Shown here piece by piece: positions 53,530 to 58,450 of a stretch of DNA of 64,000 nt; the first letter of the stretch is position 1; every line of letters starts with the position of its first letter. Where the stretch lies: NCBI RefSeq assembly GCF_003428625.2, contig NZ_QVQT02000006.1:248001-312000 (forward strand), read 5' to 3'. The translations under genes and the position numbers were made by a program. The notes beneath the pieces are model-generated. The model searched no databases, was not told the origin of the DNA, and saw only the letters and a list, made by a program, of their open reading frames with translations. The DNA comes from Paracidobacterium acidisoli. GTDB taxonomy: Bacteria > Acidobacteriota > Terriglobia > Terriglobales > Acidobacteriaceae.

Positions 53530-54245
53530 ACCGGCGCCAGAAGCCTGAGCACCAGAAAGATTCCCACGCCGGCGAAGAAGACCAGCGCCATGCGGATGCC
53601 CGGCTCGCGGTTCACCTCGGGCAGCAGATCGGTTGCCGCCACATAGAGCGCCACGCCTGCGGCCAGCGGCAGTCCGCCATGCACCCAGGTGGGCAGCAGG
53701 CTGATCACCAGCGCTCCGGCGACGGTGGCCGCAGCCAGCACGATGGCCGATATCACGGCGGTGCGGCGCGTTCTGCCTGAGGCGACCATCACCGAAGCCG
53801 CGGTGAAGCCTTCGGGAATCTTATGCAGAAAGATGGCGATGAAGATCAGCCAGCCCAGCCAGGTCGACAGCACAAAGCCGGAGCCGATGGCCACGCCGTC
53901 GAAGACGGAGTGCACGGCGAGGCCGAAGAGCACCGAGTAGCCGGTGTGGGCGTGGGCGAACTCGTGATGGTGCGTCTCTTCGCCGAAGTGGAAGTGCGGC
54001 GTGATGGTGTGCTCGAGCAGATGGATGGAACAGTAGCCGGCGAGCACCAGCAGCGGCGTCCAGCGCGGCGAGAAGGCCATGCTTTCAGGCAGCATGTCGA
54101 GCAGCGCCACGGCCATCATGAAGCCCGCGCCCAGCGCGATGAAGTAGCGCAGGTAACGCTTCTCCCAGTTGCGGCGGACCATGAGCAGGCCGCCGAAGAT
54201 ATCGGCGGACCCTGCGATAGCCCCGAGAATGACGGTGAGAAGCAT
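53526..54245 (-). CDS. ZIP-family divalent metal transporter
   Basis: A 239-residue membrane protein with about eight TM helices. Metal-site helices are [10 protein letters not shown] (TM4) and HKIPEGF (TM5); a His-rich cytoplasmic or loop region [17 protein letters not shown] lies between TM3 and TM4. Imports Zn2+, Fe2+ or similar cations. Its start shares a base with the ychF stop (TGATG type overlap), so the two are co-translated. Its stop overlaps the methyltransferase stop by four bases on the opposite strand. Confidence 0.9.
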
Positions 54246-55330
54246 CAGCCGCTGTGCCGGATGTGCATGACGTCGCCGTCCTGCACCAGATAGTCTTTGC
54301 CTTCGAGGCGCAGAGTGCCCTGCGAGCGCGCGACGGCCTCCGATCCGGCCGCGAGCAGCGTATCCCAGTGGATGGTTTCGGCACGGATGAAGTGCTTTTC
54401 AAGGTCGGAGTGGATGGCGCCGGCTGCCTCCTGCGCGCGCGAGCTGGCGGGAACGGTCCAGGCGCGGCACTCGTCCTCGCCCACGGTAAAGAAGCTGATG
54501 AGGCCCAGCAGCTCGTAGCTTTTGCGGATGAGACGCACCAGACCGCTCTCGTTCAGTCCATAAGAAGAGAGGAACTCCGCGGCCTCGGCGTCTTCCATCT
54601 CGGCCAGCTCGGCCTCCACTTTGCCGCAGAAGGCGGTGGCTCCCGCATTGAGACGCGCCGCCGCTTCGGTGAGCTTGTACTTTGCCACCGCCGCTTCGAG
54701 GTCGTCGCCGAGCGTGGTGCTCTCGGAGATATTCAGCGCATAGAGCACGGGCTTCTGCGACAGGAACATGAAGCCGCGGATCAGCTTCTTCTCCTCGGCC
54801 GACATCTCCAGCTCGCGCAGCGGCTTTTCCGCTTCGAGCGATGCCTTGCAGCGCTTCAGCAGAGCATCTTCCTTTTCAAGGTCGGCGGTGCGCATCTTCT
54901 TCAGATCTTTTTCGAGGCGCTCGAGACGCTTCTCAACCTGGGTGAGGTCGGAGATGATCAGATCGAACTCGACATTCTTCACGTCGCGCAGCGGATCGAT
55001 CTCGCCCACATGCGGGATCGCATCGTCCTCAAAGGCGCGCAGCACGTGGATCAGCGCGTCGACGTTGCGCAGATTGGCGAGAAAGGCCGTCTCTTTGAGC
55101 GCCTCCTGCCCGATGGCGGCCACGTCGGCGTACTCGACGGTGGCGTAGAGGGTGCGCTTCGGGTCGTAGAGCGCGGCGAGTTTGTCGAGCCGCTCATCGG
55201 GAACCTTTGCCACGCCGATGTGTGCCTCGCGCGGGTTCGAGTACCCGCGATCTTCCACCTTCGCCTTCGTGAGAATGCGGAACAGAGATGTCTTGCCGAC
55301 CTGGGGCAGGCCGATGATGCCGGTTTTCAT
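54245..55330 (-). CDS. ychF: YchF/OLA1-like GTPase/ATPase with altered switch regions
   Basis: A 361-residue P-loop protein. P-loop GLPQVGKTSLF (7-17), the YchF-type NISE motif (NxxE instead of NKxD) in KPVLYALNISE, a coiled-coil insert (VEKRLERLEKDLKK), and a clear C-terminal TGS/DUF933 domain (LLGLISFFTVGEDECRAW ... LVQDGDVMHIRHSG). The usual DIAGLVKGAS...GEGLGNKF switch II is replaced by a shorter DVAAIGQEALKETAF with no DxxG glycine, and the ANFPFCTI switch I is NPREAHIG. Nucleotide hydrolysis may therefore be changed. Confidence 0.85.
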   Translation of the reverse strand: MKTGIIGLPQVGKTSLFRILTKAKVEDRGYSNPREAHIGVAKVPDERLDKLAALYDPKRTLYATVEYADVAAIGQEALKETAFLANLRNVDALIHVLRAFEDDAIPHVGEIDPLRDVKNVEFDLIISDLTQVEKRLERLEKDLKKMRTADLEKEDALLKRCKASLEAEKPLRELEMSAEEKKLIRGFMFLSQKPVLYALNISESTTLGDDLEAAVAKYKLTEAAARLNAGATAFCGKVEAELAEMEDAEAAEFLSSYGLNESGLVRLIRKSYELLGLISFFTVGEDECRAWTVPASSRAQEAAGAIHSDLEKHFIRAETIHWDTLLAAGSEAVARSQGTLRLEGKDYLVQDGDVMHIRHSG

Positions 55331-55654
55331 GCGTATCCTGTGATGAAATTTGGGCGTTACGCCAATTCACCATCATAGCAGCGGATCGCGGACCGAATGT
55401 GAATGGCGGCTGCTTCCCAGCCTGTGAATTTTCCGAACACTTCTCTTTCCGCTGCCGCCTTTGCGGTCGAACCAGGACTGCTGAACGGGCGCAGACAGGG
55501 GCATGCAGCGTTGCTGCAGCAGGAAGAGGCTCACAGGACAATCGCGATGGCTGCTGCTTCGAAAGGACACCGACGGAAGCCGGAGGCGGACAGGCGGAGC
55601 TGACGGCCACGCGCATCGACTGAAGCGAAATGAGAATGCGATGCCGTGCCGCGC

Positions 55655-55695
55655 AAAAAAAAGCAACGAGGCCGATAGCTGCAGCGGCCTCGTTG
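55655..55695 (-). terminator. Minus-strand intrinsic terminator
   Basis: CAACGAGGCC (55664-55673) pairs perfectly with GGCCTCGTTG (55686-55695). On the minus strand the stem is followed by a T-run (complement of the A8 tract at 55655-55662). It ends a transcript entering from above 55700, upstream of ychF. Confidence 0.8.
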
Positions 55696-55808
55696 TCCGA
55701 GGAGGGGTTGCTGTGTAACAAGAGAAGCCCGCCAGGGACTTCTCACTCTCATCGAAACACCGGCCTCCAGGCGAAGTTGCGGCTCATCAGAAAATTTCGA
55801 AGAGAGTT

Positions 55809-56001
55809 TCCGCCGGACATCCCACCTCTGTGTGAACCGGTGAAGCCGAGGTGGGATTTCACGCGCTGCAGAGCCAGGGCAGGATAGACAGTGTCAGGCG
55901 GACGATTCCGCTGGACGGAAGATTCCGGAACTTCCCAACCCGTTTCCCATCCATCTGCCAACCACAGAGGCTGCGACCTGTTCTCGCAGCCTTTGTTTTT
56001 T
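55809..56001 (+). ncRNA. Candidate structured non-coding RNA (unnamed)
   Basis: Nested complementarity: TCCGCCGGACA (55809-55819) pairs with TGTCAGGCGGA (55892-55902) with one mismatch in 11, enclosing a perfect 10-bp hairpin formed by ATCCCACCTC (55819-55828) and GAGGTGGGAT (55848-55857). A further TTCCG/CGGAA hairpin follows at about 55906-55920, and the unit ends in a strong intrinsic terminator (55968-56001). No match to a known RNA class was recognised. The 5' end is not defined. Confidence 0.4.
55968..56001 (+). terminator. Plus-strand intrinsic terminator upstream of aroF
   Basis: AGGCTGCGA (55968-55976) pairs with TCGCAGCCT (55984-55992), loop of 7, then TTGTTTTTT. It has no upstream protein gene on this strand, which supports a separate RNA transcript. 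Confidence 0.8.
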
Positions 56002-56043
56002 GGGGCCTGCTCTCAGGCCGCTTCCGGCAAAGAGTGCTTCGCA

Positions 56044-56072
56044 TTGCCTGGCCGCGGCTCCCTTATTACACT
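56044..56072 (+). promoter_or_regulatory. Predicted sigma-70 promoter of aroF
   Basis: TTGCCT (56044-56049), 17-base spacer, TACACT (56067-56072). The expected transcript starts near 56079, giving a leader of about 64 bases, so the terminator at 55968-56001 lies outside the aroF message. Confidence 0.5.
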
Positions 56073-56142
56073 GGGTGTTTACCGCTTTAGCCGGCGCCTG
56101 GTGACCTGCACCGGGTGAAGGCAGCGGCAAGAGGTTCCCACC

Positions 56143-57213
56143 ATGCTCGTCGTCATGAAGGCGCAGGCGACTCCGGAAGAGATTCGGGCCGTCTGCGCTC
56201 AAATTGAGCAACTCGGTTTCCGGGCGCATCCGCTGCCCGGCGCGCAGCGCACCGCCATCGGCATCACCGGCAACCAGGGCGAGATCGACCGCGGCAATCT
56301 CGAAGAGCTCTCGGGCGTGGCCGAGGTGATTCCTGTTTCGAAGCCTTACAAGCTGGTCAGCCGCGATGTGAAGGAAGAGGATACGATCATCCGCTTTGCC
56401 GGCACGGATGCGACGATCGGCGGGCACAACCTTGCGGTCATTGCCGGGCCCTGCTCGATTGAGACACGGGAGCAGGCCTTTGCCGTCGCCGAAGAGGTGG
56501 CGCGCGCAGGGGCACAGTTCTTCCGCGGCGGAGCGTACAAGCCGCGCACCTCACCCTACGCCTTTCAGGGGCTGGGCGAAGAGGCGCTGCGGATCATGTC
56601 GGAGATTCGCGAGCGCTTTGGACTTCGCATCGTAACGGAAGCCATCGATCACGAGGCGCTGGAGCTGGTCGCCGAATATGCCGATGTGATTCAGATCGGC
56701 GCGCGCAACATGCAGAACTTCTCGCTGCTGCGGGCCGCGGGGCGCAAACGCAAGCCGGTGCTGCTGAAGCGCGGCATGTCGGCCACGCTGGAAGAGTTTC
56801 TGATGGCCGCCGAATACATCATGAGCGAGGGCAACTACGAGGTCATTCTCTGCGAGCGCGGCATTCGCACCTTTACCGACCACACCCGCAACACCCTTGA
56901 CCTGAGCATTGTGCCCGCGGTGCAGCGCCTGAGCCATCTGCCCATCCTGGTCGACCCCAGCCACGGCACCGGCAAGCGCAACAAGGTGCTGCCTCTGGCT
57001 CGCGCCGCAGTCGCGGTGGGCGCCGACGGACTGATCGTCGAGGTACACAACCAGCCGGACAAGGCGCTCTCGGATGGCGCACAGTCGATCTACCCCGAAC
57101 AGTTCGCACAGCTGATGGATGAGTGCTCGCAGATTGCCGCCGTGCTGCGGCGCAGCGTGCCGCGCGGCATCCATACCACTGAAGCGGCCGGAGCCTCCGG
57201 CCCTGCTCGCTGA
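56143..57213 (+). CDS. aroF: 3-deoxy-7-phosphoheptulonate synthase (DAHP synthase)
   Basis: A 356-residue enzyme making DAHP from PEP and erythrose 4-phosphate, the first step of aromatic amino acid synthesis. An N-terminal ferredoxin-like regulatory domain ([18 protein letters not shown], about 1-70) precedes the barrel, as in the Thermotoga-type AroF with feedback control by aromatic amino acids. Active-site segments: [47 protein letters not shown], and [16 protein letters not shown] 56143 has AGAGG 9 bases upstream. Followed at once by the YVTN lipoprotein. Confidence 0.95.
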
Positions 57214-57217
57214 TCCG

Positions 57218-58450
57218 GTGCATACGCCCTCGAAGCCGGGTGCGCAGCCCGGCCGAGCGCCGTTCGTGAAGCTGCCTGCAGGAGTGCGGGCTGTCTCTGC
57301 CCTGTGCCTTCTGCTGCCGCTGCTGCTGGCCGGGTGCAGACGCCAGCATTTCCCCAAATATCCGGCCAATTTTCGCGAGTTCGCCTACATCACCAACGGC
57401 GGCAGCGATACGGTCAGCGTGCTCGATCTGGTGAATATGCGCCAGGATCGCGTGATCGCGGTCGGCTCCAGCCCAACGGGCATTACGGCCAGCCCCACGC
57501 GCAACGAGATTTATGCGGTCAACTCCGGCAGCGGCACCGTCAGTGTCATCGATGCGGAGAACAACCGCCTCGCGGCGACGATTCCGGTGCATCGCCAGCC
57601 GTATTTCATCGATGTGGATGCAAAGGGCGAGCGCGGCTACGTGGCCAATGCGGGATCGAACAATGTCTCCGTGATCGATCTGGCGGCGCGGCGCGTCATC
57701 GCCACGATCGGCGTGGGCGAGGCTCCGGGGCTGGCCCGCATCTCACCGGACGGCGACAGCCTGGTGGTCACCAATCGCGCCAGCGGCAGCGTCTCCATCG
57801 TCGATCCGCATGCGTTCCGGGTGCGCAGCGTCTTCACCGGCTGCCCGCAGGCCACCGACGCCGTGATTCTGCCCGACTCGTCGAAGACCTTCGTCGCCTG
57901 CTCGGGCGGGCATCAGGTGATGGTCATCGGCCTGGCCCGGCCGGCGAGTCCCTACGAGAGCGAGCACCGGGATCGTCTGCTGGATTTTCTTGATGTGGGG
58001 CAGACGCCGGTGCATCTGGCGCTCAAGCCCGACGGCGGCGAGATCTTCGTCTCGAATTTCGGCAGCGACACCATCTCCGAGATTGCCACGGGAGCGAACG
58101 AGGTGGGCGGAGCGTATAACGTGGCCACGCGCCCCTCCGGCGGCGTGGTGAGCGCAGACAATTCGACGCTCTGGATCAGCAATTTCAGCGCCAACACGGT
58201 CGGCGCCTACTCGATCGACGACGGCCAGCTGGTGAACACCATCAATGTCGGCGATGGTCCGGATCATCTGGCGCTGGCCAGCAACGGCTTCGTGCTGCTC
58301 GCCGTCGATACCCGCTCGGGCGACGTCTCGGTGATCCGCACCATCAGCTACGCGCCCGATGGAACCATTCATCAGGGCTCGCTCTTTACCATGCTGCCGG
58401 TGGGACGGCATCCGAACGACATCGCGGTGAAGGCATTTCGCGTGCAGTAA
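57218..58450 (+). CDS. YVTN-type beta-propeller lipoprotein
   Basis: A 410-residue protein with lipobox LLAGC (Cys40 from GTG 57218). Seven or so YVTN-like blades follow, for example GGSDTVSVLDLVNMRQDRVIAVG, GSGTVSVIDAENNRLAATIPV and GSNNVSVIDLAARRVIATIGVG. GTG 57266 (MKLPAG) is an alternative start. It follows aroF by four bases, but functional linkage is unclear. Possibly a surface-exposed binding protein. Confidence 0.8.
   Translation: MHTPSKPGAQPGRAPFVKLPAGVRAVSALCLLLPLLLAGCRRQHFPKYPANFREFAYITNGGSDTVSVLDLVNMRQDRVIAVGSSPTGITASPTRNEIYAVNSGSGTVSVIDAENNRLAATIPVHRQPYFIDVDAKGERGYVANAGSNNVSVIDLAARRVIATIGVGEAPGLARISPDGDSLVVTNRASGSVSIVDPHAFRVRSVFTGCPQATDAVILPDSSKTFVACSGGHQVMVIGLARPASPYESEHRDRLLDFLDVGQTPVHLALKPDGGEIFVSNFGSDTISEIATGANEVGGAYNVATRPSGGVVSADNSTLWISNFSANTVGAYSIDDGQLVNTINVGDGPDHLALASNGFVLLAVDTRSGDVSVIRTISYAPDGTIHQGSLFTMLPVGRHPNDIAVKAFRVQ

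Follow-up and report, generated by a model that had tools for sequence, protein, structure and literature searches.

A Candidate Small RNA Gene Conserved in Acidobacteriaceae, Encoded on the Strand Opposite to aroF

Organization of the Locus

The locus considered here lies in a window of 64,000 nucleotides (the whole stretch of DNA analyzed) from Paracidobacterium acidisoli, and its features are collected in Table 1. Two genes, aroF and a beta-propeller gene whose product is presumably a lipoprotein, as judged from its LLLAGC-like signal, occupy the plus strand, and ychF the minus strand. In its longest frame, the beta-propeller gene shares 57119-57213 with the end of aroF, and its true start is uncertain and probably lies further downstream. 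In a first-pass annotation, the hairpins that precede aroF on the plus strand were proposed to form a novel, independent structured RNA. The analysis reported here indicates that a novel RNA upstream of aroF, without an Rfam family, very probably exists, but on the opposite strand and outside the interval first assigned to it.

Table 1. Genes, putative RNA features and promoter at the aroF locus (positions in the window).
Feature	Position	Strand	Evidence or remark
ychF, about 325 nt downstream of the RNA, same strand	54245..55330	-	PF06071 1.7e-34
Putative small RNA gene, about 95 nt	55655..55750	-	conserved in relatives; fold z -2.8 for 55655-55751
Terminator U-tract, 8 U	55655..55662	-	letters
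Intrinsic terminator stem CAACGAGGCC..GGCCUCGUUG	55664..55695	-	compensatory changes
Linker CCCCUCCUCGGA, leading into stem base CAACG	55691..55707	-	fixed portion CUCGGACAACG
5' hairpin GAGAAGUCCCUGGCGGGCUUCUC	55722..55744	-	sequence varies between genera
Putative ECF-sigma-type promoter: GCAACTT (-35, 55774-55780), 15-nt spacer, GTT (-10, 55756-55758)	55756..55780	-	
Plus-strand element: two hairpins and a terminator-like site	55809..56001	+	not conserved as a unit
aroF, DAHP synthase, divergent neighbor	56143..57213	+	PF00793 1.6e-83, PF18152 1.1e-19
Beta-propeller (YncE/YVTN-like) gene	57119..58450	+	PF21783 8.2e-14, PF10282 2.7e-12

The Plus-Strand Hairpins Upstream of aroF

Most of what was first described on the plus strand can be read in the letters, namely an outer pairing of TCCGCCGGACA (55809-55819) with TGTCAGGCGGA (55892-55902), in which 10 of 11 positions pair, and a perfect 10-bp stem of ATCCCACCTC with GAGGTGGGAT (55819-55828 with 55848-55857), but the outer pairing, in the form first described, is absent from the predicted fold of the element. 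A terminator scan likewise recovered the terminator, a hairpin of 13 pairs (55964-55996) with T-rich sequence behind it, and just mechanical ORFs of 75-85 aa, none a convincing protein gene, are found on this strand at the element. Over 2 kb the scan gave three such terminator sites, where shuffled sequences average 1.7 (sd 1.3), while the perfect 10-bp stems with a short loop number five in the window and zero to four in five shuffles, the stem of the plus-strand element and the minus-strand terminator at 55664 being among the five. The element is predicted to fold only modestly better than its shuffles (-76.1 against -68.1 kcal/mol, sd 5.0; z -1.6; 14 of 200 shuffles as good). The separate promoter that had been assigned to aroF did not emerge from a scan for sites of the sigma-70 type, which returned none in 55000-57000.

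With 55640-56142 as the query, matches at E<=0.001 were obtained in three of 60 other genomes. Two of the matches (G017 and G033) correspond to the minus-strand RNA described below, and the third (G016, E 3.4e-4) is a 30-nt stretch inside the plus-strand element (55914-55943, 27 of 30 identical), located at a locus (L003) that lacks aroF. The complete element had no match in 60 other genomes (sequence search, E<=0.001), and a plus-strand terminator between the conserved RNA and aroF is present in one (L160) of 15 other aroF-bearing loci. With its modest folding energy, no conservation as a unit, and 14 of those 15 loci devoid of the terminator, the element was rejected as a conserved RNA; its hairpins look like a feature of a single genome and, no sigma-70-like promoter having been found, little besides them favors an RNA gene. 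It may still be thought of as a lineage-specific small RNA, or as an aroF leader with an attenuator, either of which would be compatible with a minus-strand RNA: it ends in the 13-pair terminator, 143 nt before aroF, and L160 has a terminator similarly placed. Set against the fold, promoter and conservation results just given, including the recurrence of a single 30-nt piece at an unrelated locus, such a role is considered unlikely. The 30-nt piece that recurs in G016 contains an inverted repeat (GGAAGATTCCGGAACTTCC).

The Minus-Strand RNA and Its Structure

The minus strand of 55650-55820, adjoining the plus-strand element, has a fold z of -3.5. When the minus-strand piece was searched against 200 genomes of the family, the best non-self matches (G152, G017, G070, G172, and G111) all had aroF beside the RNA. 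The rows gathered by sequence search and aligned (19, of which 15 distinct) display one architecture: behind a promoter-like GNAACTT-N15-GTY come a 5' hairpin that varies, a linker rich in pyrimidines that leads into CUCGGACAACG (present in all 19), a terminator stem, and a U-tract. With its start estimated from the promoter position and its end from the U-tract, a conserved and independent RNA gene is very likely to occupy about 55655-55750.

Compensatory base changes, by which the structured RNA first proposed was to be recognized, do occur in relatives, but in the terminator stem of the minus-strand RNA. In the seed alignment of 18 sequences, which was not fitted to the model, the 11-pair stem is paired in 98.0% of cells and six of its 11 pairs have two-sided changes, with slid partners pairing in at most 56.1% of cells. 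In the alignment of 62 sequences (55 distinct), which was fitted to the model and therefore leans toward pairing, 98.7% of cells are paired, two-sided changes affect seven of 11 pairs and 59 cells (shuffles, 14.1), pairing of slid partners does not exceed 54.4%, and the covariation score of the 55 distinct sequences is 0.333, against 0.187 shuffled and 0.03-0.13 for the slid versions. Folded singly, 13 sequences, the window included, gave z values from -2.6 to -8.0. In the 5' part, at least six pairs are predicted in 56 of 56 folds, a count made without a shuffle control, and covariation of the 5' hairpin across genera was not demonstrated, although a few pairs show two-sided changes within two groups. 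Either group has four such pairs when its entire fold is counted, of which few belong to the 5' hairpin, and the covariation terms are +0.41 (slightly unfavorable) in one group and -1.77 in the other.

In 49 of 56 predicted ensembles half or more of the linker is unpaired (median 0.63), and in the other seven (L152, L160, L169, L179, L189, L190, and L193) less than half. Its letters are constant toward the terminator: CUCGG is invariant in 53 of the 55 distinct rows aligned by the model, the other two being gapped, and the stem base has the letters C, A, C, and G in all 55. Ahead of this fixed part the linker varies, with CUCCUCGG at 28 of 57 sites, CCUCCUCGG at 17, and other forms such as CCUUCUCGG or CCUACUCGG; the CCUCCUC in it resembles an anti-Shine-Dalgarno sequence. 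Agreement at some of these letters comes partly from selection, since the exact letters CTCGGACAACG served to pick the 18 seed sequences, and the pattern behind the 57 sites requires [CT]TCGGNCAACG; the rows free of letter-based selection are those gathered by sequence search and those aligned by the model. The pattern is present in 56 of 61 sources, and the five that deviate (L183, L185, L186, L187, and L188, with an extra A in L185 and L186) were omitted from the context, fold, and promoter counts and kept in alignment A3.

Neighboring Genes

At 51 of 56 loci the beta-propeller gene and the RNA are divergently oriented, and aroF adjoins the RNA, likewise divergently, in 16 loci including the window. 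Among the 36 loci that have the beta-propeller gene and no aroF, 32 have the start of that gene no more than about 230 nt from the RNA core. Downstream, a convergent cytochrome-c assembly gene (PF01578) lies within 700 nt in 36 of 56 loci, and other genes are found elsewhere. This context, with a downstream gene that is often convergent, points to an independent gene rather than to a leader. A cis-acting leader has nonetheless to be weighed, i.e., an attenuator whose terminator would control the downstream gene and in which CCUCG-GACAA-CGAGG would be the alternative antiterminator hairpin, because ychF follows on the same strand in the window and CUCG and CGAG, as read from the sequence, can pair around GACAA in competition with the terminator. 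However, besides being convergent in the 36 loci mentioned, the downstream gene varies between genera, and where the terminator reads CGAAG the alternative pairing is down to three pairs with no matching change in the linker. The constant same-strand downstream gene that marks a cis-acting attenuator or riboswitch was not found, so that a leader of the downstream gene was rejected and attenuation appears very improbable.

The best-conserved part of the element includes the terminator stem and, together with the frequent convergence of the downstream gene, this might suggest a mere terminator, possibly serving both strands, without any RNA function. Against it, the linker is fixed although it lies outside the terminator stem, the U-tract is found on one strand, the conserved promoter ends 45-66 nt ahead of the core in the loci that have it and, with the upstream neighbor divergent in 51 of 56 loci, no other transcript evidently ends here; it is very improbable that the element is a terminator and nothing else. 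An independent RNA gene is the reading followed below.

As for aroF, its start was compared with the RNA in 17 rows from 16 loci, window included, and the duplex energies were no better than those obtained with stretches drawn at random from these loci (a fraction of 0.23-1.0 of the controls did equally well), on which ground aroF was rejected as a base-pairing target; it is a neighbor of the RNA and not a supported target. In genus g34 (L196, L199, L200, L202, L203, and L206) about 390 nt separate the RNA from aroF; these spacers resemble one another in part (pieces about 68-88% alike) and may harbor a further element, whereas the corresponding stretch of the window does not match them.

Distribution Among Genomes

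A covariance model (R1), for which 17 genomes supplied 18 sequences, finds the RNA in 62 of 398 Acidobacteriaceae genomes at E<=4e-7 (at least 37.4 bits), 45 of them outside the 17 source genomes, and in 77 of 398 at E<=0.01. By a hand count, the 62 positive genomes span 11 of the 79 genera searched. In the own genome, R1 has one good match; of its four other matches, one is that hairpin read on the reverse strand (E 0.0034) and three have E>=0.41. In an order-level search, 51 of 200 genomes matched at E<=0.001, 50 of which belong to the same family, and in a phylum-level search 15 of 297 matched, 14 of them in the family; the matches outside it, G049 (25.8 bits) and G491 (26.7 bits), are regarded as chance. 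An iterated model (R2), trained on the 62 sequences found by R1, matches 80 of 398 genomes at E<=0.001 and 65 genomes at 40 bits or more; as both sets consist largely of its own training members, the distribution rests on R1. Weak model matches are numerous, and several fall on the two strands of a single palindrome; they were disregarded as probably representing other terminators. Among 80 named aroF loci, several of which have little upstream sequence, the RNA is present at four. From these searches, the minus-strand RNA is a family-level RNA of patchy presence.

Promoter and Candidate Sigma Factors

An AAC core in the -35 element together with a GTC-like -10 element is typical of promoters read by ECF sigma factors. 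At the distance expected for an ECF-dependent small RNA, the strict pattern G[AC]AAC[CT]T-N14-16-GTY is found in 49 of 55 distinct upstream sequences, and in 52 of 55 when the -35 is relaxed. The background, strict and relaxed, is 0.05 and 0.35 in shuffled upstreams and 0.38 and 0.79 at random places in the same loci, a comparison which, as the pattern was read off the same sequences, gauges strength and is not blind. The window promoter corresponds to the own-genome match G000:C12:303756-303780:-. It is quite likely that an ECF sigma factor drives the minus-strand RNA.

Genome-wide enrichment of the promoter motif was seen in none of five genomes, in each of which the motif is rarer than its backward reading (24 against 50 in the own genome, 23/40 in G017, 36/71 in G142, 35/49 in G294, and 50/64 in G359). 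In the own genome, 30 loci of 32 ECF matches were scanned over the 300-800 nt before region 4, and a strict site occurs in one (L223), with 0.4 expected by chance. The L223 site, GCAACCT-N15-GTT, lies about 154 nt before the aligned start of the ECF gene, and this single site is near chance for 30 loci; the gene is a candidate regulator of the minus-strand RNA.

Of the 144 promoter sites in the four other genomes, 111 were examined (those omitted being 28 of G142, three of G359, and, in both G294 and G359, the site of the RNA itself), and four gene pairs are shared, all between G294 and G359, which belong to one genus (g35). In both genomes compared, genes for an ECF sigma factor (PF04542, PF08281), a DUF6249 protein, a TonB-like protein, and a DUF5666 protein share the promoter type of the RNA, which suggests an envelope-related regulon. 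The ECF sigma gene and the divergent DUF6249 gene (L306 in G359, L307 in G294) each have GAAACTT-N15-GTC close upstream, and the same promoter is found at the TonB-like gene (L298, L356) and at the DUF5666 gene (L328, L378). Across genera, the g35-type ECF gene does not track the RNA, being present in eight of 25 carriers and in five of 21 non-carriers, so that this gene is not supported as a general regulator, nor is one common ECF sigma factor.

A side observation concerns another site of the own genome (L247, G000:C1:44570-44594, minus strand), where a promoter-like GCAACTT-N15-GTC precedes a hairpin and a terminator between apparently convergent genes; this may be a second small RNA, or no more than a terminator region.

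Proposed Mode of Action

The RNA has its own intrinsic terminator with a U-tract and the genome carries an Hfq gene (E 2.9e-28), as looked for in small RNAs of the Hfq type. Taken together, promoter, terminator, and linker make it probable that the locus holds an independent RNA gene of about 95 nt with an ECF-type promoter, acting in trans as an Hfq-type RNA and blocking ribosome-binding sites. An ECF sigma factor would switch the RNA on under cell-envelope or other stress, Hfq would hold it at the U-tail, and the linker (CCUCCUCGGA in the window, UCCUACUCGGA or CCUUCUCGGA in relatives) would pair with purine-rich ribosome-binding sites and thereby block translation of the target mRNAs. Action by base pairing at ribosome-binding sites, taken as a claim of its own, is somewhat more likely than not.

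The same fixed letters may be read in another way, with CUCGGA, placed between two hairpins, as a protein-binding site, so that the RNA would, for example, titrate a CsrA-like regulator through the fixed GGA instead of base pairing. Titrating RNAs as a rule carry many GGA motifs. Here a single conserved GGA is found per RNA, and a protein-binding role in place of base pairing is judged quite unlikely. Returning to base pairing, a broader and tentative proposal, possible rather than probable, is that the RNA is the core of an ECF-sigma-controlled small-RNA response of Acidobacteriaceae, in which a fast-changing 5' hairpin is combined with a fixed CUCGGACAACG that overlaps seed and terminator stem, and many mRNAs would be hit at once under envelope stress.

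If this were true, an ECF-driven small-RNA response would exist in a phylum for which hardly any small RNAs have been annotated; the table of a 2022 review gives only four distinct ones for Acidobacteria (PMC9029176). A conserved, promoter-bearing RNA, together with a model able to detect it in dozens of genomes, offers a concrete entry to post-transcriptional control in a common soil group, and the ECF-type promoter makes the link to stress directly testable in cultured strains.

Comparison With Known RNAs

The first-pass annotation had not recognized 6S, SRP, RNase P, tmRNA, or a known riboswitch. In a search of Rfam 15, no match over the gathering cut-off (these classes included) was found in the whole window. 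In 55320-56160, at E<=10, just CRISPR-DR29 appeared, at 56121-56142 (E 5.2; 15.1 bits against a cut-off of 39), and the matches of two homologues were all far below the cut-offs, the best having an E of 0.3. Known Rfam families were thus rejected as the identity of the RNA. Acido-1 (RF01686) and Acido-Lenti-1 (RF01687) are, like the minus-strand RNA, RNA candidates of Acidobacteria, and the region matches neither model. No report of the minus-strand RNA was found among the open-access papers searched (PMC2864571, PMC3927594, PMC10746234, PMC10253847, and PMC3174227 included), which did not extend to a 2017 survey of 224 candidate RNAs. The RNA is very probably a novel, independent structured RNA without an Rfam family, most likely of the trans-encoded kind.

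Two groups of known small RNAs come closest in kind. MicA and RybB, the sigmaE-dependent RNAs of enterobacteria, are similarly short and terminator-bearing, occur in Hfq-containing bacteria, and have a promoter of the ECF type. The minus-strand RNA differs from them in belonging to another phylum and in having no Rfam match, and a corresponding regulator and outer-membrane targets are hypothetical here; it would presumably work like the sigmaE-dependent class (PMC1804206) and like the anti-Shine-Dalgarno RNAs of alphaproteobacteria. With alpha-r14, cuckoo, and CcsR of alphaproteobacteria it has in common an unpaired CCUCCUC-type anti-Shine-Dalgarno stretch beside hairpins with variable stems, as well as the occurrence of tandem copies. 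By contrast, the motif of these alphaproteobacterial RNAs is CCUCCUCCC, while here the fixed part is CUCGGACAACG and CUCCUCGG is limited to the 28 sites mentioned above; in place of CCUCCUCCC the window has CCCCUCCUCGG, and most g35 members have UCCUACUCGG or CCUUCUCGG. Furthermore, one motif is present per RNA against three in alpha-r14, and the promoter is of the ECF type instead of the sigma-70 or RpoH type of alpha-r14, cuckoo, and CcsR. Since the fixed motif differs and the host belongs to another phylum, the RNA was placed neither among the sigmaE-dependent RNAs nor among the anti-Shine-Dalgarno RNAs. At one locus (L189, G142:C1:800833-801018), two copies of the RNA are arranged in tandem, the second of them without an ECF-type promoter.
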